DNA of 64,000 nt from Natronobeatus ordinarius. Its GTDB lineage: Archaea; Halobacteriota; Halobacteria; Halobacteriales; Natrialbaceae. The notes under the pieces are model-generated. The model worked only from the letters and a program-made list of their open reading frames with translations. It was not told the origin of the DNA and did no database searches. The DNA lies in NCBI RefSeq assembly GCF_024362485.1, contig NZ_CP101456.1:1488001-1552000 (forward strand), in the 5' to 3' direction. Position 1 is the first letter of the stretch. Each line of letters opens with the position of its first letter. Both the position numbers and the translations under genes were made by a program. Below, in pieces: positions 6,527 to 17,037 of this stretch.

Positions 6527-7543
6527 TCACTCGACCATCGAGGGGCCACCGGTCGCCGACAGGTAGAGCGCACCGAGCCCGCAGACGGTCAGGTGGAGCC
6601 AGTACGTCGAGAGCCGGTAGAGCAGCGCCGTGGCTGCGGCGACATCGCCGGTGAGTCCCGCGGTCGCGACGAGTAGCCCCGTCAGGACGGCCTCGATGCC
6701 GCCGGTGCCGCCGGGAAGTGGGATCACGCCGCCGAACGATGCCAGCGGCGCGAGCGCGAACGCGAGAACGAGCGGCACGTCGACGCCGAGCGCGAGCAGC
6801 CCGAAGTACAGCGGGAGGGCGTTGACGAACCAGCTCGCGAGCGCGAGTGCGAACGCGGCGGCCAGCGTCCGGCGCGCCGCGCCGATCCGCTCGAGCGTCG
6901 TGAAAAATCCCTCGAGACGAGCCTGGAGTGCACCCTCGCTCGCGGGGAGCCGTGGGAGACGGGCCGCGAGCGACTCGAGGCTGGCGGCGAGCCCGAACAG
7001 GAACGGCTGGATCCAGCCCCGGCTGATGGCGAGCACGAGTGCGACGATCACGAGGATGCTGACCCCGCCGACGAGCCCCAGGTTGGTGAGGAGGTCGCCC
7101 GGAACGTCGCCGCCCATCACGTAGACCGAGAGCCCGACGAGGGCGACGACGATCGACGCGAGGAAGGCGAACACTTCGGCGGTCGCGACGACCGCGAGGT
7201 TGTCCTCGAACTCCGAGTCGGAGTTCGCCGCGAGCAGGTAGGCGGTAATCGGCGTCCCAACCGACCGACCCCACGGCAGGGCACTCCGCGCGAAGTAGCC
7301 GGAGAGGAACGCGACGACGAACGACCATCCCCGGGCAGCCCCGTCGACCGGTTCGAGCAGCCGGTGGACGATCGCCCCTCGGAGGGCGAGGATCGCGCCA
7401 CCGGCGACGAGCGCGGCGGCGAACGCGGCCGGGTCGGCTCGCTCGAGGTTCGAACGCACCGCTTCCCAGCCGACGCCGTAGACCAGCAGGCCGACGAGCG
7501 CGAGCGCGAGGACGAGGCCGGGAATGGCCTGGCGGAGACGCAT
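6527..7543 (-). CDS. LPG synthase-type integral membrane protein (UPF0104)
   Basis: 338 residues with about eight to nine hydrophobic helices. The signature near the C-terminus, GGVIPLPGGTGGIEAVLTGL, is characteristic of the lysylphosphatidylglycerol synthase transmembrane domain (UPF0104). The segment PWGRSVGTPITAYLLA also fits. Only the membrane half is present; there is no soluble aminoacyl-transfer domain, as is usual in archaeal members, so lipid aminoacylation should not be assumed. Its location beside egsA on the opposite strand is consistent with lipid or envelope metabolism, but this is inference. The start is the ATG at 7543, in a divergent region shared with the HTH-binding-protein gene. 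Confidence 0.88.
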   Translation of the reverse strand: MRLRQAIPGLVLALALVGLLVYGVGWEAVRSNLERADPAAFAAALVAGGAILALRGAIVHRLLEPVDGAARGWSFVVAFLSGYFARSALPWGRSVGTPITAYLLAANSDSEFEDNLAVVATAEVFAFLASIVVALVGLSVYVMGGDVPGDLLTNLGLVGGVSILVIVALVLAISRGWIQPFLFGLAASLESLAARLPRLPASEGALQARLEGFFTTLERIGAARRTLAAAFALALASWFVNALPLYFGLLALGVDVPLVLAFALAPLASFGGVIPLPGGTGGIEAVLTGLLVATAGLTGDVAAATALLYRLSTYWLHLTVCGLGALYLSATGGPSMVE

Positions 7544-7632: not shown

Positions 7633-7655
7633 GTGATCACACTCGTACATTTATG
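7633..7655 (+). promoter_or_regulatory. Promoter of the HTH/binding-protein operon with upstream palindrome
   Basis: TTTATG at 7650-7655 is centred about 27 nt before the ATG at 7680. Ten bases upstream lies the perfect 8-bp palindrome GTGATCAC (7633-7640). A palindrome just upstream of the TATA element is where an archaeal regulator could act, and the first gene of this operon encodes an HTH protein. Autoregulation is only an inference. Confidence 0.45.
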
Positions 7656-7679: not shown

Positions 7680-8984
7680 ATGGACACCAGGGAGGTTCCC
7701 GTTCTCTCTGCGGGCGATCAGCCGCTCGTCGATCGGCTCGCGGCGGGGCTGGGTGAGAACGCGGCTCGTGTGCTGGCGTACCTGGTGTTACGTGCAGAAC
7801 ACTACCCGGACGAGGAGCCGGCGTCGGAGCCCATCGTTCAACTCGGGACGGAGCTGAACCGGAGTCGGGTCAAAGACGCGCTCGCCACCCTGTGCGAGCG
7901 GGAACTGGCGACCGAGACGACCGTCCGAACGACCACGTCGGGTCGGCCACCGAGAGCCTGGTACACGACGGAGTCTCGCGCCACCGCGACGCGGAACGCG
8001 TCCGATCGACACGCCCAGCGGTTGCTGGAGCGGAGTCGTCGGTGGGCCGATTCCGAGAACACTGATGGTGGCGAGTCGGTCGCGATATCCGAACCCCGTT
8101 CGACGGTATCGTCCGACGCCGATTCTCACGTTACCGTCGGCCTCAACTGGCGGCCGAACGGGCTCCAGCTGCCGCTGTTCGCCGCGCTCGCCGGGGGCGA
8201 GTACGACCGTCGAGGTGTTTCGGTCACCCTCGAGGAGTACCGGGGGTCGGCGCGGGCCATCGAGAGCGTCGTCGACGGGGAAGCGGACGTCGCCATCGCG
8301 GGGGCGGCGTCGATCGTCCGAGCGCGCGCGGACGGTGAGCCGGTCGTCCCGATCGTGGTGTGGTTCCAGCGACCGATGGTCGTCTTCTACACGACGCGTG
8401 AGCCCTTCGGCGAGCCGCTCGAGACGGTCGGACAGCTCCGCGGTCGGCGCGTCGGCATGCCGATCGAGTCAGAAACTGGGCTGCTCGGTCGGCTCTACCT
8501 GTCACAGGCGGGCGTCCTCGAGGAGACCGAGTGCGTCGATCTCCGGGGCGAAGAGTCGGAGCCGCTCCAGTCGGGGACGGTCGAGGTCGTCACGGGGACG
8601 TTCTCCGATCCGATGCGGCTCGAGGACGGCGGCGCGACGGTCGATTCGATCCACGTTGCGGACCAGTATCCGATCTACGGCCCGGCGATCGTCGCCCACG
8701 CGGAGACGCTGAGACGACAACCACGGCTCCTCGAGACGTTCCTCGCCGGGACGGTCGCGGGGTGGGCGCTCGCCACCGAGGACCCGAGCACGGCCGCCCG
8801 TGACGTCGCCCGGCAGACGGACCGTCCCGCGGCGTGGATCGAACGCGTCTTCGAGCGGGCGGCCGACCGGTTCGGGACGACGGACGCGGTTCGAAAGCAC
8901 GGCTGGGGGTGGCAGTCCCCCGAGACGTGGAGCCGGCTGGAGGAGGCGCTCGAGCAGGTCGACCTCCTCGAGGTGAGATCGTGA
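7680..8984 (+). CDS. HTH regulator fused to NMT1/THI5-type substrate-binding domain
   Basis: 434 residues from the ATG at 7680. Residues about 12-100 form a winged helix-turn-helix (LGENAARVLAYLVLR, then ELNRSRVKDALATLCERELA, wing near TSGRPPRAWYTT). A polar linker follows to about 150. Residues about 153-430 are a periplasmic-binding-protein-type domain of the NMT1/THI5/SsuA class: VGLNWRPNGLQLPLFAALAG, YDRRGVSVTLEEYRGSARA, later HGWGWQSPETW at 407-417. The same HGWGW motif is in the lipoprotein encoded at 11374-12435. There is no signal peptide, so the binding domain should stay in the cytoplasm and act as a ligand sensor for DNA binding. Its stop overlaps the ATPase start by 4 nt. The upstream in-frame ATG at 7524 would add unrelated basic sequence. 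Confidence 0.85.
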   Translation: MDTREVPVLSAGDQPLVDRLAAGLGENAARVLAYLVLRAEHYPDEEPASEPIVQLGTELNRSRVKDALATLCERELATETTVRTTTSGRPPRAWYTTESRATATRNASDRHAQRLLERSRRWADSENTDGGESVAISEPRSTVSSDADSHVTVGLNWRPNGLQLPLFAALAGGEYDRRGVSVTLEEYRGSARAIESVVDGEADVAIAGAASIVRARADGEPVVPIVVWFQRPMVVFYTTREPFGEPLETVGQLRGRRVGMPIESETGLLGRLYLSQAGVLEETECVDLRGEESEPLQSGTVEVVTGTFSDPMRLEDGGATVDSIHVADQYPIYGPAIVAHAETLRRQPRLLETFLAGTVAGWALATEDPSTAARDVARQTDRPAAWIERVFERAADRFGTTDAVRKHGWGWQSPETWSRLEEALEQVDLLEVRS

Positions 8985-9760
8985 TCGACGTCGACGACGT
9001 GACGGTGGCGTTCGACGACGTGACCGCGATCGAGGAGATCGACCTCGCGGTCGACGAGCACGAGTTCGTCACCGTCCTCGGGCCGTCGGGGTGTGGGAAG
9101 ACGACGCTGTTGCGGACGATCGGCGGCCTCCAGGAGCCGACGAGCGGGCGCGTTCGCATCGACGGGCAGCCGCCGGCGCGTGCACAGGCGTCGGCCAACG
9201 TCGGCTTCGTCTTCCAGCAACACACGCTGTTCCCGTGGAAGTCCGCGCTCGAGAACGTCACCTTCCTCCGATCGGTGGCCGGCAAGCCGGCCGACGAGAG
9301 GGGGGCGATGGCGCTCCTCGAGAAGATGGGGCTCGAGGCGTTCGCCGACGCCCGTCCCGCGGCGCTCTCGGGCGGGATGAAACAGCGGGTCGCGATCGCC
9401 CGCGCGCTTCACCTGGGGGCGGACGTGCTGTTGATGGACGAGCCGTTCGGCGAGCTGGACGAGATCACGCGGGATCGGCTGGGCGTCGAAGTGCGTCACA
9501 TCTGGCGCGAGGAGAAAAAGACGGTGCTGTTCGTCACCCACAGCGTGCCCGAGGCGGTGTTCCTGGCCGATCGCTGCGTCGTGATGGCCAGCGACCCGGG
9601 ACGGATCGACGAAGTGTTCGAGATCGACCTCCCGCGGCCGCGTGACGAGGCGGTGTTCGAATCGACGGCGTTCCACGAGTCCGTTTCGACGGTCCGGCGG
9701 CGAATCCACCGCACGGGCCCGTGGTCGGCAGCCACGCGAACGATGGATCGGTCGCCATGA
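8981..9760 (+). CDS. ABC transporter ATPase (SsuB/TauB/ThiZ type)
   Basis: 259 residues from a GTG at 8981 that overlaps the previous stop (GTGA), preceded by the ribosome-binding-like GAGGTGA. Complete ATPase: Walker A GPSGCGKT at 34-41, Q-loop FQQHTLFPWKS near 78-88, signature LSGGMKQR at 129-136, Walker B LLMDEPFGELD at 150-160, switch His188 (VTHS). It energises import by the neighbouring permease or permeases and belongs to the nitrate/sulfonate/taurine/thiamine-precursor branch. Longer in-frame extension upstream overlaps the HTH gene and lacks similarity. The next gene begins at ATGA overlapping this stop, so the three genes form a tight operon. Confidence 0.93.
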   Translation: MIDVDDVTVAFDDVTAIEEIDLAVDEHEFVTVLGPSGCGKTTLLRTIGGLQEPTSGRVRIDGQPPARAQASANVGFVFQQHTLFPWKSALENVTFLRSVAGKPADERGAMALLEKMGLEAFADARPAALSGGMKQRVAIARALHLGADVLLMDEPFGELDEITRDRLGVEVRHIWREEKKTVLFVTHSVPEAVFLADRCVVMASDPGRIDEVFEIDLPRPRDEAVFESTAFHESVSTVRRRIHRTGPWSAATRTMDRSP

Positions 9761-10563
9761 CGTCCAGGCGGCCGACTCGAGCGAGTCCGAGTCAGGCAGC
9801 TGCGATCTACTCCGTGTTCCGGCCCGCGGTCGCCCTCGTCGCCGGACTCGGCCTCTGGTGGGCAGTGACGAGCGTCTTCGACGTCCCCGCCTTCTACCTG
9901 CCGCCGCCGGAAAGCGTCGCCGCTCGCCTCCTCGGCAATCCGGAGCTCTACCTGACCAACGCGGTGTCCACACTCGAGAAGGTGCTCTACGGCGGGGCGG
10001 TCGGCGTTTCGACTGGCTTCGCCCTCGCGCTCGTCGTGGCGTTCGTGCCCTCGGTTCGGCGGATCGTCATGCCGTACGTCGTCACGGCGCGCGTCCTCCC
10101 GAAGATCGCGATCGCCCCCGTCCTGTTGATCTACATGGGGACGGGGATGGACACGGCCATCCTGTTCGTCGCGCTCATCTCCTTTTTCCCGATGGTCCTG
10201 AACACCGCGGCTGGGTTCGATCGGGCGCCGAGGGACCACCTCGAGTTGCTGCGGTCGGTCGACGCGAGTCGCTACCGGCGCTTTCGGTCGGTCTACCTGC
10301 CGTACGCGCTGCCCGACGTGTTCGCGGGGCTCAAACAGTCGGTCACCCTCGCCGTCGTCGGCGCGGTCGTCGCCGAGTGGATCGTCACCGACAGCGGGCT
10401 TGGCTACGTCATCCTCATCGGTTCGGAGAACATCCGGACGGACGTGATGCTGGCGGCGCTGTTTTCCCTCCTCGTGCTCGGGCTGTGCCTGTACGGGGCC
10501 GTCGCTGTACTCCAGCGGCTGCTCCTCGCCGGGACGCTCGAGTCGGGGGCCGATCCGTCGTGA
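9757..10563 (+). CDS. ABC transporter permease (SsuC/ThiX type)
   Basis: 268 residues from the ATG at 9757 (ATGA overlap with the ATPase stop). Six or so membrane helices are present, with the cytoplasmic coupling loop RDHLELLRSVDASRYRRFRS corresponding to the EAA loop that contacts the ATPase. It belongs to the BPD_transp_1 family, SsuC/TauC branch. It is the third gene of the operon. The second permease of the island lies opposite and converges 51 bp further on, so the channel could be this protein as a homodimer or a heterodimer of the two permeases. Substrate is not determined from sequence. Confidence 0.9.
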   Translation: MTSRRPTRASPSQAAAIYSVFRPAVALVAGLGLWWAVTSVFDVPAFYLPPPESVAARLLGNPELYLTNAVSTLEKVLYGGAVGVSTGFALALVVAFVPSVRRIVMPYVVTARVLPKIAIAPVLLIYMGTGMDTAILFVALISFFPMVLNTAAGFDRAPRDHLELLRSVDASRYRRFRSVYLPYALPDVFAGLKQSVTLAVVGAVVAEWIVTDSGLGYVILIGSENIRTDVMLAALFSLLVLGLCLYGAVAVLQRLLLAGTLESGADPS

Positions 10564-10614: not shown

Positions 10615-11370
10615 TCAGGCGTCCCGCCACGCCCGTTCGACCAGTGACGGCAGGAGGTAGAACGCGATCCCGAGCAGCGAGAGGACGACCAGCGCGGCGT
10701 AGGTCTCCGCGGTGCGGAGTCGCGAGGAGGTCTCGAACACCCGGTAGCCGATGCCCGCGTTCAGCGTGACGAACTCGGCGACCACGGCACCCACGATGGC
10801 GAGCGTGGCCGCGATCTTCGCGCCGGCGAGGATGCTCGAGGCGGCTGCCGGCACCCGGATGCTGAGGAACACGCGCGTCGACGGTGCGTCGACCGACCGG
10901 GCGAGGTCGAGGTACTCGCGGGGAACCGACCGGAGCCCGTCGAGGGTGGCGATCGTCATCGGGAACAGCGTCAGCGACGCGACGACGAGCGCGCGTGCGG
11001 GGATTCCGCGACCGAACCAGAGAAAGAAGAGCGGAGCGATCGCGATGACCGGGGCGATTCGGAGGGCGACGACGTAGGGGAGGATGGTGTCCCGTGCCGC
11101 CCGAGAGGACGTCATCGCGAACGCGAGCCCGAGCCCGACGACGACGCCGACGGCGAGGCCGAGCCCCGCGGTGACCGCCGTCACTGCGGCGTCAGCCAGG
11201 AGCTGCGGATACGTCTCGAGCAGCGCCGCCCCGACGTCGAGCGGCGAGGGGAGGATGACTGGCGGGATGGCGTAGGTAGTCACCACGAACTGCCAGCCAC
11301 AGAGCAACCCGACCCCGACGAGCAGGGAAGGCCCCCAGCGGAGCGTCTCCGTTCGCACTCGAGCGTGCAT
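10615..11370 (-). CDS. ABC transporter permease, second copy (SsuC/ThiX type)
   Basis: 251 residues, six predicted helices, coupling loop REYLDLARSVDAPSTRVFLS. It is related to the permease at 9757: both have LP(P/S)P near the N-terminus, RxLPKIAIAP versus RIAPVIAIAP in the middle, and AIVGAVVAE(F/W) near the C-terminus. It begins 3 nt after the stop of the substrate-binding lipoprotein on the same strand, so these two form an operon without an ATPase of their own. The ATPase at 8981 is the only candidate in the island to energise it. Confidence 0.9.
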   Translation of the reverse strand: MHARVRTETLRWGPSLLVGVGLLCGWQFVVTTYAIPPVILPSPLDVGAALLETYPQLLADAAVTAVTAGLGLAVGVVVGLGLAFAMTSSRAARDTILPYVVALRIAPVIAIAPLFFLWFGRGIPARALVVASLTLFPMTIATLDGLRSVPREYLDLARSVDAPSTRVFLSIRVPAAASSILAGAKIAATLAIVGAVVAEFVTLNAGIGYRVFETSSRLRTAETYAALVVLSLLGIAFYLLPSLVERAWRDA

Positions 11371-11373
11371 CCG

Positions 11374-12435
11374 TCACTCGGAGACGACGGTCGCGTAGTC
11401 ACCGACGTACTCTGACTCCTCGTCGATGTACTCGTTGGTCCAGATGGCGTCGGGATCGACCTCGCTCTCGAGGAAGTCGCCCGCCTCGAGCGTCTCGTGG
11501 GTGGCCTCCCACGGCTCGGGTTCGTTCCAGCCCCAGCCGTGTTCCGAAACGGCCTCAGAGAGCATGTACTCGGTGCTCATCGCGATCCACTTGTCGAGCT
11601 GGTTCTCCCGGACCTCGCCCAGTTCGGGTTCGTGGTCGACGAGCACGTCGATGGCTTCCTCCGGGTTCTGGTGGGCCCACGCCGCGCCCCGCGCGGTGGC
11701 GCGGATGAACGCGCGAACCGTCTCGGGATTCTCCTCGAGGTAGGACTCGCCAACGCCGACGACGTGACCGTACGACGGGATGACTTCGTTCACGGGGAGG
11801 ACGTCGATCGTCGCGTCCTGGTGTTCGGCGTCGATGACGTCGCTGAACACCCCGCCCGCGGCGTCGATCTCACCGGCGAGCAGCTGCTGGACCGTGTCGA
11901 AGCCGGAGTCGACGTACTCGACCGACTCGAGCACGCCGTGGTGGTCGAGAAACGACTCGGTCATCGTCCGGACCATTCCGGGGCCGCTCCCGACGGTCAC
12001 GCCCTCGAGCTGGCTCGCGTCGGTCAGCTCCTCGCCGAACGCGTCTCGAGCGGTGAAGACGACGGTCGGTCCCTGCTGCATGACGACGGAGACACAGCGG
12101 AGGTCGAGCCCGTCCTGGCTGTTCACGTTCAGTACCTGATCGCCGCTCGTGATCGCGAACTCGGTGTTTCCGAGGGCGACTTGCTGGGCCGAGAAGTCAG
12201 AGCCCTGCCCGCTCTCGATCGCCTCGAGGTCGATACCCTCCGCCTCGTAGTAGCCGCGTTCGAGGGCGGCGTAGTAGTGGGCGTGTAACCCGCCGGGCTG
12301 GAAGTTGAGCAGGAGCGATGCGGACTCGAGGTCGCCCTCCTCGCCTGGACCGGCCGACTCGCCGAATTGGCCGAGACAGCCGGAGAGGGCGACCCCACCG
12401 AGTGTCGCGACGAACGCTCGTCTTGAGTGGGGCAT
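11374..12435 (-). CDS. Tat-exported substrate-binding lipoprotein (NMT1/THI5 type)
   Basis: 353 residues from the ATG at 12435. Twin-arginine signal SRRAFVATLGGVALSGC with lipobox Cys20 predicts export by Tat and lipid anchoring to the outer face of the membrane. The body resembles NMT1/THI5/SsuA proteins: LLNFQPGGLHAHYYAALERG, then YYEAEGIDLEAIESGQG, DAAGGVFSDVID, and HGWGWNEPEPW at 299-309. It should capture a small organic ligand and deliver it to the permease encoded next. The start at 12435 was preferred over the ATG at 12444 because a TATA-like TAGTTTAT sits about 30 nt before it. Candidate ligands by family are pyrimidine thiamine precursors, sulfonates or similar; none is proven. Confidence 0.9.
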   Translation of the reverse strand: MPHSRRAFVATLGGVALSGCLGQFGESAGPGEEGDLESASLLLNFQPGGLHAHYYAALERGYYEAEGIDLEAIESGQGSDFSAQQVALGNTEFAITSGDQVLNVNSQDGLDLRCVSVVMQQGPTVVFTARDAFGEELTDASQLEGVTVGSGPGMVRTMTESFLDHHGVLESVEYVDSGFDTVQQLLAGEIDAAGGVFSDVIDAEHQDATIDVLPVNEVIPSYGHVVGVGESYLEENPETVRAFIRATARGAAWAHQNPEEAIDVLVDHEPELGEVRENQLDKWIAMSTEYMLSEAVSEHGWGWNEPEPWEATHETLEAGDFLESEVDPDAIWTNEYIDEESEYVGDYATVVSE

Positions 12436-12460: not shown

Positions 12461-12468
12461 ATAAACTA
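12461..12468 (-). promoter_or_regulatory. TATA-like element of the binding-protein/permease operon
   Basis: TAGTTTAT on the reverse strand, about 30 nt before the ATG at 12435. The divergent region up to 12614 is locally AT-richer and also has to serve the ArsR-type gene. Confidence 0.5.
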
Positions 12469-12614
12469 TTCGGTCAAATGTTTACATACCCCGCACCAGT
12501 TCGACTCCGTCGGTCCACCGGTCCGGCGCACGGTCGGTACCACGGCGAAGAGAACCGGCACGACTGACCGAAATCGTCCCGTAAAAGACGCTCCTCGAGG
12601 AACGTGGACGTACC

Positions 12615-12893: not shown

Positions 12894-12991
12894 CGCCCTG
12901 ACGTCGACGACCTCCGCGCATGTAGGATCTTCCAATGGACGTCTCTACCCGGAGAGGTACGTTTATGCGGACACTCAGAATGGTGGGGGCC

Positions 12992-14086
12992 ATGTCCGAC
13001 GCCAGTCGCCGACGATTCCTTCGATCGACAGGCGCGGTCGCCGGTGTGGCCCTCGTCGCCGGCTGTTTCGGCGGCGAGAATGGGGACGACGTGCTCGGCG
13101 ACCCTGAGTACGTCGAGGGCCGACCCGATCCCGGCGGGACGTCGATCGAGGAGTTACCCGACCTGAACGGCGAACTCACGATCTACTCCGGTCGAAGCCA
13201 GACGCGTATCGGCGAGCTAATGGATCATCTCGAGAACGAGTACGACGATCTCTCCCTCGAGGTCCGGTACGACGACACCGCCGACCTGACCGCGACCATC
13301 GAAACGGAGGCGGAGACGCCCGCTGACGTCTTCTACGGGAGCGAGACGCAGTCGATGACGCACCTCAAAGAGGGCGGGTATACCACTCCGCTCCCCGACG
13401 ACGTGCTCGAGCTGAGCGAGCCGGACACGCAGGACCCAGACGGCCACTGGGCCGGTTTCACGCGTCGGTTCCGGGCGATCGGATACTACACCGAACGGTA
13501 CGACAGGGAGGAGTTACCGGACGACATCTTCGAGTTCGCCAGCGACGAACGCTTCCGCGACGATATCATGTGGGCCCCGGATCAGGGGTCGTTCCAGGCG
13601 TTCGTGACGGCCATGCGGGTGTACCACGGCGAGGAAGAGACGCGCGAGTGGCTCCGGGCGATGGTGGACGACCAGAACGTTGCGACGTCGCCGGGTGGCG
13701 ACAGCGCGATGGCGCAGGCAACCGCCGACGGCGAGGTCGGCATCGCCCTCACCAACCACTACGTCCTTCGCGACAACCCCGGCGACACGCTCGATCTCGC
13801 GTACACGAGCGGTGACGCCGGTGCGATGTTCAACGTCACCGGCGCGACGGTGATGGCAGACAGCGACGACCAGGAAACCGCCGCGAACTTCGTCGCCCAC
13901 CTCCTCTCGGCTGAGGCCCAGGAGTACTTCGCGACGACGACGTGGGAGTATCCGACGATCGACGGCGTCGAACCGATCGACGAGCTCCAGTCGACCGACG
14001 AGTTCGAACCCCCCGAACTCGACCTGAACGAACTGGCCGACCTCGAGCCGACGCTCGAACTGCTTCGCGACGAAACCATCCTGTAA
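12992..14086 (+). CDS. FbpA-like iron(III)-type substrate-binding lipoprotein
   Basis: 364 residues from the ATG at 12992, with TTTAT centred 28 nt upstream (12962-12966). Tat lipoprotein signal SRRRFLRSTGAVAGVALVAGC. Body of the extracellular solute-binding family 1, Fe(3+) branch: GELTIYSGRSQTRIGELMDH, PADVFYGSETQSMTHL, RFRAIGYYTERYDREELPDD, with paired Tyr residues typical of this class, and GATVMADSDDQETAANFVAH. It would bind ferric ion or a chelate outside the cell and pass it to the fused permease-ATPase encoded 32 bp downstream. The transporter class is confident; the exact ion is inferred from family resemblance. Confidence 0.88.
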   Translation: MSDASRRRFLRSTGAVAGVALVAGCFGGENGDDVLGDPEYVEGRPDPGGTSIEELPDLNGELTIYSGRSQTRIGELMDHLENEYDDLSLEVRYDDTADLTATIETEAETPADVFYGSETQSMTHLKEGGYTTPLPDDVLELSEPDTQDPDGHWAGFTRRFRAIGYYTERYDREELPDDIFEFASDERFRDDIMWAPDQGSFQAFVTAMRVYHGEEETREWLRAMVDDQNVATSPGGDSAMAQATADGEVGIALTNHYVLRDNPGDTLDLAYTSGDAGAMFNVTGATVMADSDDQETAANFVAHLLSAEAQEYFATTTWEYPTIDGVEPIDELQSTDEFEPPELDLNELADLEPTLELLRDETIL

Positions 14087-14118
14087 CTGGTTCGACTTCG
14101 TCTCCCCTCCAATTTCCC

Positions 14119-17037
14119 ATGGCCACGGCTGACCCGTTCAACGTCGACCCCCGGAGGCGAGAGGGTGCAGACTCCTCGAGTGACGGGGGTGACGAGGGCG
14201 GCGGCGACGGGCTCCCGATCGGGCTCACGCTGCTCGCCGGGGCCGTCTCGGCCGTGATCGTGATTCCCGTCCTCTGGGTCGGCGTCGTTGCGCTTTCGGT
14301 CGAGTACGAGCGCGCGGCGGCGATCGTCTTCCGGGCGCGGACGCTCGAGATCCTCCTGAACACGCTGGCGCTCGTGGTCGTCGTCACGACGCTTTCGGTG
14401 CTCATCGCAGTCCCGCTCGCGTTCCTCACGACCCTCACGAACCTCCCGTACCGACGGCTCTGGATCGTAGCGCTCTCGCTGCCGCTCGTGGTACCGAGCT
14501 TCACCAGCGCGTTCGCGTTCATCTCGGTGTGGGGGCCGCGGGGACTGGTCCAGTCGCTCGTCGAACCGTTCGGCGTCGAGTCGCTGCCGTCGATTTACGG
14601 CTTCTGGGGGACCGCCTTCATCCTCACGCTCTACAACTACCCGTTCGTCTACATCACGACGCTCGCGGGGCTCCAGGCGTTCGACAAGACGTACCTCGAC
14701 GCCGCCCGGACGCTCGAGACCGGTCTGTGGCCCGTGTTCAAGCGTGTGGTCTTCCCGCTGGCCAAACCCGCGATCGCCGCGGGGGCGTTGCTGACGGCGC
14801 TCGAGACGGCCGGCGACTTCGGCGTCCCGGCGCTGTTGCGTCTCGACGTGCTGACGCGCCAGATCTACGTCGAGCACAACGCCTTAGCCCACGACTACGC
14901 CGCCATGCTTTCGCTGCACCTGGTTGCGATCACGCTCGTGATCCTCGCGATCGAGTCGCAGGTGCGCGGTCACGAGACGATCCACGGCGGCTCACGCGGC
15001 GAGTCGCGCTCGTACACGATCCGCCTCGGCCGGTGGAAATGGCCCGTCCTCCTCGGTTGCGGGATGCTCTTCACCCTCAGCATCGTCCTCCCGATCGTCT
15101 TCCTGACCTGGTGGCTGATCCAGGGCCCGCAGACGTACGTCGCCTCCCTCGAGTTCAGCCCCGAGTACGCGTTCAACTCCGCGTCCGTCTCCGTGCTCGC
15201 GGCCCTCGTCGCCGCCGCGTTCGCGCTCCCGGTGGCCGTTCTCGCCGCACGGTACCGGTCGACCGTCTCGACCCTCCTCGAGCGGGCGACCTACGTCGGC
15301 TTCGCCGTCCCCGGCGTCGTCATCGGCCTGAGTCTCGTCTACTTCGGCTCGGCGTACCTCCCGGCGCTCTACCAGACGATCCCGCTGCTCGTCTTCGCGT
15401 ACGTCGTCCTCTACCTCCCGCTCGCCGTGGGCTCGGTTCGAGCGTCGATCCTGTACGTCAACCCGCACCTGACCGAGGCGGCCCGCTCGCTGGGCTGTTC
15501 GCCACGTGAAGCGTTCCGGAAGATCACGCTCCCGCTGATCCTCCCCGGCGTCGTCGCCGGCGCGGCGCTCGTCTTCCTCCACGGGATGAAAGAGTTGCCG
15601 GCGACGTTGCTGCTCCGTCCCACGGGATTCGAGACCCTGGCGTCGTTCATCTGGGTGGCCGAGCGAAACGCCTACTACGGCTACGCCGCCGTTCCCGCCC
15701 TCGTGCTCATCTTCGTCTCCGGCTTCGCGATCCTGGCTGTGCTGCCGGGCGAACGATTCGACTACCGGCGGGTCCGCCGCCGGATCGGCCGCTCGTCACC
15801 CCGTCTCAGAAGCGCCAAGTCACTCGAAGGTGACCGAGCCGACGTGAGCTTCGACGGGGGACGACGCGAGGACTGGAGCGAGGGCGACGACGAAGCCGAC
15901 GTTCCGGCCACTCGGGCTCGAGCGACGGCAACGGCGAAGGCGGACGCGGAGACGGACCCAGGCGACGTGATCCTCGAACTCGAGGCCGTCCGCAAGGCCT
16001 TCAATGGCGAGACGGCCGTCGACGACTGCTCGCTCTCGGTTCGCGAAGGTGAGGTGCTCACCCTGCTCGGGCCCTCGGGCTGTGGAAAGACGACCACGTT
16101 GCGACTGATCGGGGGGCTCGACCGGCCGGACGCCGGCACGATCCGGATTCACGACCGGGTCGTCGCCGACGACTCGTCGTTCGTCCCCGCGGAGAGCCGG
16201 GACGTCGGCATCGTCTTCCAGGACTTCGCGCTCTTTCCACACCGGACCGTCGCCGAGAACGTCGCGTTCGGACTCGAGGCGAGTTCCGAGGCGGAGACGA
16301 CCGTGGACGAGCTACTCGAGCTCGTCGGCCTCCGCGAGTACCGCGACAGCTACCCCGACGAACTCTCGGGCGGACAGAAACAGCGGATCGCGCTCGCCCG
16401 CTCGCTCGCCCCACAGCCCGAGCTCCTGTTGCTCGACGAGCCGCTGTCGAACCTCGACGCTGGCCTTCGCGTGCGCATGCGGACGGCCATCCGGGAGATC
16501 CTCGACGCCGTCGACGTCACCGCGATCTGGGTCACCCACGACCAGGAAGAGGCGCTCTCGGTCGGCGACCGGACCGCCGTGATGAACGCTGGCTCGATCG
16601 AACAGCTCGATACCCCGCGGGCGGCGTTCATGCGCCCCGCGACGCGGATGGTCGCCGACTTCCTCGGCCAGGCGAGCTACCTCCGCGGCGCGCTCGAAAA
16701 CGGCGTCGTCGAGACGGCGATCGGTCCGCTCGAGCGCGACCACGTGCTCGTCCCGGAATCGGCCGACGTCGGGCGGCTCGACGTCCTCGTCCGCCCGGAC
16801 GACGTCGCGCTCGAGGAGGCGGCACCGTCGGCCGCCCACGGCCGGATCGTCGACCGACAGTTCACCGGCTCGAGCGTCACCTACCGCGTCGAACTCGAGG
16901 ACGGGACGACGCTGCACTGTCGTCGGCCACACGAGGACTGGCTCGACGTCTCGGCGCCGGTCCGGGTGTCGATCACCGCCGGGCACGAGCTGCCGGCGTT
17001 CGAGGTCGAGTCGGAGTCGGGTGCTCGAGGCGGGTGA
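14119..17037 (+). CDS. Iron-type ABC transporter, permease and ATPase in one polypeptide
   Basis: 972 residues from the ATG at 14119. Residues about 35-540 are an FbpB-type double permease: two sets of helices with coupling loops KTYLDAARTLETGLWPVFKR and PHLTEAARSLGCSPREAFRK. A charged linker covers about 541-612. Residues about 615-850 are a complete FbpC-type ATPase: Walker A GPSGCGKT at 651-658, QDFALFPHRT, LSGGQKQR at 749-756, LLLDEPLSNLD, VTHDQEE. Residues about 870-965 look like the regulatory TOBE domain. These parts are normally two proteins; here no stop or frameshift divides them, although a GTG at 15967 could serve as an internal start. With the upstream binding protein it forms a complete importer. 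Confidence 0.92.
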   Translation: MATADPFNVDPRRREGADSSSDGGDEGGGDGLPIGLTLLAGAVSAVIVIPVLWVGVVALSVEYERAAAIVFRARTLEILLNTLALVVVVTTLSVLIAVPLAFLTTLTNLPYRRLWIVALSLPLVVPSFTSAFAFISVWGPRGLVQSLVEPFGVESLPSIYGFWGTAFILTLYNYPFVYITTLAGLQAFDKTYLDAARTLETGLWPVFKRVVFPLAKPAIAAGALLTALETAGDFGVPALLRLDVLTRQIYVEHNALAHDYAAMLSLHLVAITLVILAIESQVRGHETIHGGSRGESRSYTIRLGRWKWPVLLGCGMLFTLSIVLPIVFLTWWLIQGPQTYVASLEFSPEYAFNSASVSVLAALVAAAFALPVAVLAARYRSTVSTLLERATYVGFAVPGVVIGLSLVYFGSAYLPALYQTIPLLVFAYVVLYLPLAVGSVRASILYVNPHLTEAARSLGCSPREAFRKITLPLILPGVVAGAALVFLHGMKELPATLLLRPTGFETLASFIWVAERNAYYGYAAVPALVLIFVSGFAILAVLPGERFDYRRVRRRIGRSSPRLRSAKSLEGDRADVSFDGGRREDWSEGDDEADVPATRARATATAKADAETDPGDVILELEAVRKAFNGETAVDDCSLSVREGEVLTLLGPSGCGKTTTLRLIGGLDRPDAGTIRIHDRVVADDSSFVPAESRDVGIVFQDFALFPHRTVAENVAFGLEASSEAETTVDELLELVGLREYRDSYPDELSGGQKQRIALARSLAPQPELLLLDEPLSNLDAGLRVRMRTAIREILDAVDVTAIWVTHDQEEALSVGDRTAVMNAGSIEQLDTPRAAFMRPATRMVADFLGQASYLRGALENGVVETAIGPLERDHVLVPESADVGRLDVLVRPDDVALEEAAPSAAHGRIVDRQFTGSSVTYRVELEDGTTLHCRRPHEDWLDVSAPVRVSITAGHELPAFEVESESGARGG

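Follow-up and report, generated by a model that had tools for sequence, protein, structure and literature searches.

Which job does an ABC-receptor domain perform when it sits behind a DNA-binding domain instead of an export signal? The question is raised by an open reading frame at 7680–8984 (forward strand) of the 64,000-nucleotide stretch of Natronobeatus ordinarius DNA that we analyzed, here called the window. The frame encodes a protein of 434 amino acids, which we refer to as REG, and our first concern was whether it had been read correctly. The start at 7680 is right, because Met1 is invariant among 24 aligned orthologues and a TATA-like TTTATG (7650–7655, forward strand) ends 24 bases upstream of the ATG. 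That spacing would fit a leaderless start, and leaderless promoters are usual in haloarchaea. Starting from an in-frame upstream ATG, at 7524, would make the protein 52 residues longer, and none of the aligned orthologues has such an extension. No signal peptide was seen at the N-terminus, which belongs to a helix-turn-helix (HTH), and no stop codon was found between the HTH half and the sensor half.

The N-terminal half is a winged HTH (residues 11–95; 7710–7964, forward strand). Searched alone, the window protein gave no Pfam HTH match; among 18 family members MarR_2 was matched in nine (best 3.9e-6), TrmB in five and GntR in three. An AlphaFold2 model (26 sequences, pLDDT 92, pTM 0.89) is confident throughout the sensor and, in the HTH, has helices at 11–24, 26–41, 50–57 and 61–73, with wing strands at 78–81 and 92–95. 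A long helix, possibly a dimer helix, follows at residues 100–129 (7977–8066, forward strand), then a disordered linker (130–147) and a periplasmic-binding-protein (PBP) fold. This last part is the sensor, an NMT1/ThiY-type domain recognized by Pfam, PDB search and model alike (residues 150–431; 8127–8972, forward strand; GWG at 408–410). Residues 164–372 match PF09084 (NMT1) at E 6.7e-25, with 88.7 bits against a cut-off of 20.5 and positions 5–216 of the 216-position profile covered; the only other Pfam matches of REG are Phosphonate-bd and NMT1_2. The reading frame, Pfam, orthologue profiles and model agree with the first-pass annotation, which had described a winged HTH joined in one frame, and without signal peptide, to a full NMT1-type domain. 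The protein is almost certainly a DNA-binding regulator with an ABC-receptor-type sensor kept inside the cell.

The fusion is not confined to this genome. REG matches at E 1e-60 or better occur in 59 of the 391 genomes that were sampled from the class, and in 20 of 86 genera. The match is a near-full-length orthologue (39–54% identity) in 55 of these 59 genomes and sensor only in the other four. Looking for the same fusion in other haloarchaea, as had been suggested, thus revealed a conserved family, with full-length orthologues in 55 of the 391 genomes. A second genome collection yielded 28 named REG loci, from genera including Natrinema, Natronococcus, Halorubrum, Haloterrigena, Haloplanus, Halalkalicoccus, Halolamina, Halogranum, Halomarina and Haladaptatus; loci were found when contigs were scanned with the family alignment as query, and none with a single protein as query. 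On a midpoint-rooted tree of receptors and regulators the REG sensors form one group with an SH-aLRT of 100, so the HTH–NMT1 fusion looks old and of single origin. Orthologues on plasmid records are labeled 'ABC transporter substrate-binding protein' or 'hypothetical protein'. Bacteria are known to join HTHs to sensors of the PBP fold, and REG is a new form of such HTH and solute-binding-domain regulators, wrongly labeled in databases.

In the window, REG is encoded together with an ABC importer. Its stop codon overlaps (8981–8984) the GTG start of an ABC ATPase (8981–9760, forward strand; ORF, Pfam and NCBIfam), which is followed by a BPD_transp_1 permease (9721–10563, forward strand). A convergent operon encodes a second BPD_transp_1 permease (10615–11370, reverse strand) and the importer receptor, a solute-binding protein (SBP) with an NMT1 domain and a Tat/lipobox-like N-terminus (11374–12435, reverse strand; sequence, Pfam and PDB search). 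The ATPase and permease come after REG in 25 of 41 loci, and nearly all of these blocks face the second permease and receptor, in keeping with the earlier idea of a cytoplasmic regulator made from a transporter-receptor domain and genetically tied to an importer. That idea had been taken further, to an importer feedback circuit, and here it proved too narrow: about 15 loci retain REG but lack this importer, so REG is not just an importer feedback device. At one locus (L033:8989–10329) REG is intact and only fragments of the ATPase and receptor are left beside it, so that REG can outlive its importer. A second importer in the window (12935–17037) pairs an SBP_bac_6 receptor with a single ORF in which permease and ATPase are fused; it is of a type that recurs near REG at several other loci (L033, L065, L066, L071 and L083).

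We then compared the sensor with the importer receptor. As had been supposed, they are related (29% identity over 285 residues, E 3e-33), and HGWGW is present in both, at 407–411 in REG and 299–303 in the lipoprotein receptor; GWG is invariant in 24 REG orthologues, which indicates family conservation, not a chance repeat. Conserved positions common to the two are N156, W157, H163, G189–S190, Q230, G306, D310, W409 and W417 (REG numbering). Consistent differences lie at REG 208–211, where G-A-A-T stands against S-x-D-Q in the receptor, and at R257, E265 and E292. By these alignments the two binding domains are related, not identical, and given the differences the statement that REG senses the same ligand as the importer is not supported in that form. 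Could the sensor instead be degenerate, a structural part of a constitutive DNA-binding protein? The window protein does carry Q163 where 96% of REG proteins have His, and the D and Q of the receptor at 210–211 are missing. However, G189–S190, W157, N156, E265, E291–E292, G306, D310 and W409 vary little or not at all across 24–28 diverse orthologues, and the model is confident over the whole domain; we consider a degenerate sensor very improbable.

Which promoter might REG act on? A motif search of receptor promoters returned a palindrome, about AAACGTTTC-NNN-GAAACGTTT, which lies over the BRE/TATA; the correlation of its profile with the reverse complement is 0.76. The window copy, 5'-AAACATTTGACCGAATAGTTTA-3' (12462–12483, reverse strand; motif search and scoring), is a candidate operator that overlaps the BRE/TATA of the receptor operon. 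Held-out scoring, in which the profile used for a promoter omitted similar sites, placed 22 of 24 above all 200 shuffles, and none of 561 promoters of non-recurrent genes exceeded 13 bits. The box tracks REG adjacency. It is present in about 37 of 40 receptor promoters adjoining REG, a count that takes in three promoters whose start or gene call was read by hand, and in 0 of about 13 distinct receptor promoters that do not adjoin REG (L108–L117 plus G373, G383 and G273, some others being repeats of L108–L117). Even in genomes that have REG, it is missing at unlinked importers (G383, G191 and G240). REG-less importers fall at three positions on the receptor tree, all without the box, and one of them, the Halovivax importer L115, is sister to a locus with REG and a 26-bit box. 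In Haladaptatus a different importer adjoins REG and also has the box, at 25 bits. REG had been thought to control the operon that it heads; only 1 of 69 REG promoters has a box above 13 bits, which makes the convergent receptor operon a likelier target than REG's own. From the placement of the palindrome, the receptor–permease promoter is probably regulated by REG. Another near-invariant promoter sequence, AAACGTTGGACAGAACTATTTA, precedes a conserved gene of ~200 residues at L144 (in this genome, C1:1263426–1263447) and in six other genomes; the motif, conserved before this unrelated gene in several genera, looks to have no connection with REG and was set aside.

A genome-wide pattern search also located the box between c41, a divergent cupin gene, and c20. 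The latter heads a c20–c13–SBP2 cassette, with the VOC-family gene c11 nearby. The products of c20, c13 and SBP2 are NMT1-fold proteins with no evident signal peptides, and Thi5 is a soluble enzyme; the generalization that NMT1 domains are normally outside the cell is therefore too strong. The cassette including c11 is present in 54 of 391 genomes, 53 of which also have the c4/c6 gene pair discussed below (examples are L236:7008–10863 and L242–L244, and others are in G378, G151 and G132). At E 0.1, the only solved protein matched by c13 is PqqT, which was solved with PQQ (E 2.9e-25), and the cassette possibly serves cytoplasmic PQQ handling or chemistry. Beside REG or this cassette, members of c7, c8 and c5 (amphi-Trp-like, ArsR-like HTH and Na/Ca exchanger proteins) recur, for example at L041, L056 and L240.

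The c20 promoters bear directly on what binds the box. With the receptor-trained profile, those of genomes with REG scored above 8 bits in 45 of 45 cases, 41 of them above 13, and those of REG-less genomes above 13 bits in nine of nine. Neither REG nor a REG-type HTH was found in these nine genomes, so REG cannot be the only protein that the box serves, and as the sole explanation of the box it fails there. One might propose that some other regulator binds the palindrome and that REG acts elsewhere, for example at a divergent c4/c6 promoter; at about ten loci c4 and REG are transcribed divergently, with a shared intergenic region in several genera. Such a regulator would account for the nine REG-less c20 promoters. 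It would leave unexplained why importer promoters lack the box whenever REG is not their neighbor, the unlinked importers of G383, G191 and G240 included, and why it is missing at REG-less importers in three separate branches. We think this alternative rather unlikely, and at the importer promoter REG is the best candidate binder of the box.

The genomic company of REG offers a lead to its ligand. The gene c4, partner of c6, is present in 69 of 391 genomes, and in 58 of 59 REG genomes and 19 of 20 REG genera, in association tests that ignore phylogeny; species with both REG and c4 and species with neither occur within the same genus (g2). Its partner c6 is related to the PQQ dehydrogenases of methanol/ethanol type, with PedH as closest structure. 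It scores 374 bits against TIGR03075, under the NCBIfam cut-off of 480, and matches the 'empty quinoprotein' family too. It retains GGEYGV and also WDYD, which we take to be the signature of lanthanide-type PQQ dehydrogenases. A GPN in c6 was considered as a loss of the catalytic Asp and dropped, that residue presumably being the one in WDYD, which is kept. For the all-helical c4, nothing was matched in Pfam above threshold, in NCBIfam, or among PDB folds at E 0.001. No signal peptide was found in c6, and in several genera c4 opens with a Tat-like RREFLKALGV; the two may thus leave the cell as a pair or both remain in it. In this genome c4/c6 are far from the window, at C1:2113274–2115965 (L079:8772–11469), and no box was found at their promoter. 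In Halorussus, Halovivax and Halolamina the importer adjoins c4/c6 without REG; importer and REG are thus each tied to this pair. Other genes of the island encode an aldehyde ferredoxin oxidoreductase (AOR), a formaldehyde-dehydrogenase-like Zn enzyme, cupredoxin-domain proteins and a formate dehydrogenase alpha subunit that scores above its NCBIfam cut-off. The near-constant company of c4/c6 suggests that REG senses the PQQ-like cofactor of the enzyme or a related compound.

Comparison with solved structures leads first to another answer. In the PDB the sensor is closest to ThiY (E 1.4e-9 by sequence, 4.7e-16 by fold), and its best fold matches are ThiY, thiamin SBP, Thi5, SsuA and PqqT. REG might accordingly sense a thiamine precursor or a sulfonate, its link to the PQQ dehydrogenase being indirect: ThiY, thiamin SBP and Thi5 are the closest in both fold and sequence, and W-x-P-N-x-x-H at the sensor start is common to ThiY. 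Yet no thiamine or sulfonate gene family was recognized among the recurrent neighbors examined at about 70 loci. Those neighbors are the PQQ-type dehydrogenase, AOR, formaldehyde- and formate-dehydrogenase-like genes and cupredoxins, and c4 co-occurs in all REG genomes but one. Against TIGR01728, the SsuA family (curated at 163.5 bits), REG scores 30.9 bits and the receptor 37. The CCCFC cluster that we take as the mark of the Thi5 HMP-P synthase is absent from REG, which has isolated cysteines only. Gene context gives no support to the thiamine or sulfonate ligand of the first-pass annotation and more to a PQQ-type one, and we regard the former as unlikely.

PQQ or a relative is favored by c6, by the PqqT homologue c13 behind the same box and by the presence of PqqT in the fold family. 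On the other side, ThiY is a closer match than PqqT for both REG and the receptor, and no sequence match to PqqT was found for REG (at E 0.01) or for the receptor (at E 0.001). A search for PqqC gave no match in 61 genomes, but the control genomes were equally silent, so this result carries no weight. Because REG belongs to a PQQ alcohol dehydrogenase system, PQQ or a close relative is the most likely ligand, and we rate a PQQ-type ligand at just short of an even chance.

We propose the following mechanism. The MarR/TrmB-like winged helix of REG would read DNA, and its ThiY-type PBP domain, inside the cell, would read an imported small molecule. REG would act on the receptor–permease promoter of the adjacent importer through the palindrome over the BRE/TATA. 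Both would be part of a haloarchaeal system centered on a lanthanide-type PQQ alcohol dehydrogenase, with PQQ or a close relative such as PQQ–metal as the ligand imported and sensed. The computations establish which domains REG has, how far it is conserved, which genes it is associated with and that the box at the importer promoter tracks REG adjacency; from there we infer box binding by REG, the sign of its regulation and the ligand. That REG is a one-component regulator of the uptake of PQQ or a relative seems to us evenly balanced. A fuller version, in which REG senses PQQ or PQQ–metal, archaea import PQQ, and signal-less PqqT-like proteins handle it and feed a lanthanide-type quinoprotein alcohol dehydrogenase (cytoplasmic, or exported with the Tat-signal c4), is put forward tentatively, with the balance somewhat against it.

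A MarR/TrmB-like winged HTH joined to a complete NMT1 receptor and encoded with its own importer is thus a conserved haloarchaeal regulatory unit with a predicted operator, and the system points to a gene set for PQQ-type uptake and alcohol/formate oxidation in archaea. If the ligand is PQQ, REG would be a transcription factor that responds to PQQ, and the importer an archaeal PQQ importer; we know of no established example of either. In the open literature that we searched, we found no description of HTH–NMT1 regulators or of haloarchaeal PQQ uptake.

How does REG compare with known systems? ThiY (3ix1) and thiamin SBP (4nmy) resemble its sensor in fold (TM-scores of 0.81 and 0.78, by target) and in the motif LNWxPNxxH, but these are stand-alone receptors, whereas the REG domain is cytoplasmic, fused to a winged HTH and only 19–20% identical to them. 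PqqT (9b1u, 9b1v, 9ooz), a PQQ-binding SBP, has a fold common to the sensor (E 8.5e-10). The HTH–ThiN regulators of archaeal thiamine genes share with REG a one-component logic in which a metabolite-reading domain is used, but REG has no ThiN domain by Pfam and no thiamine gene context. SgrR of E. coli likewise joins a DNA-binding domain and a solute-binding-protein domain in one cytoplasmic protein; likened by description only, it differs in having an Opp/Dpp-type sensor (SBP_bac_5) and another HTH. LysR-type regulators such as CysB also pair a winged HTH with a PBP-fold effector domain, of type 2, but their HTH and sensor families are different, and in REG the sensor is a full NMT1 receptor domain encoded beside its importer.
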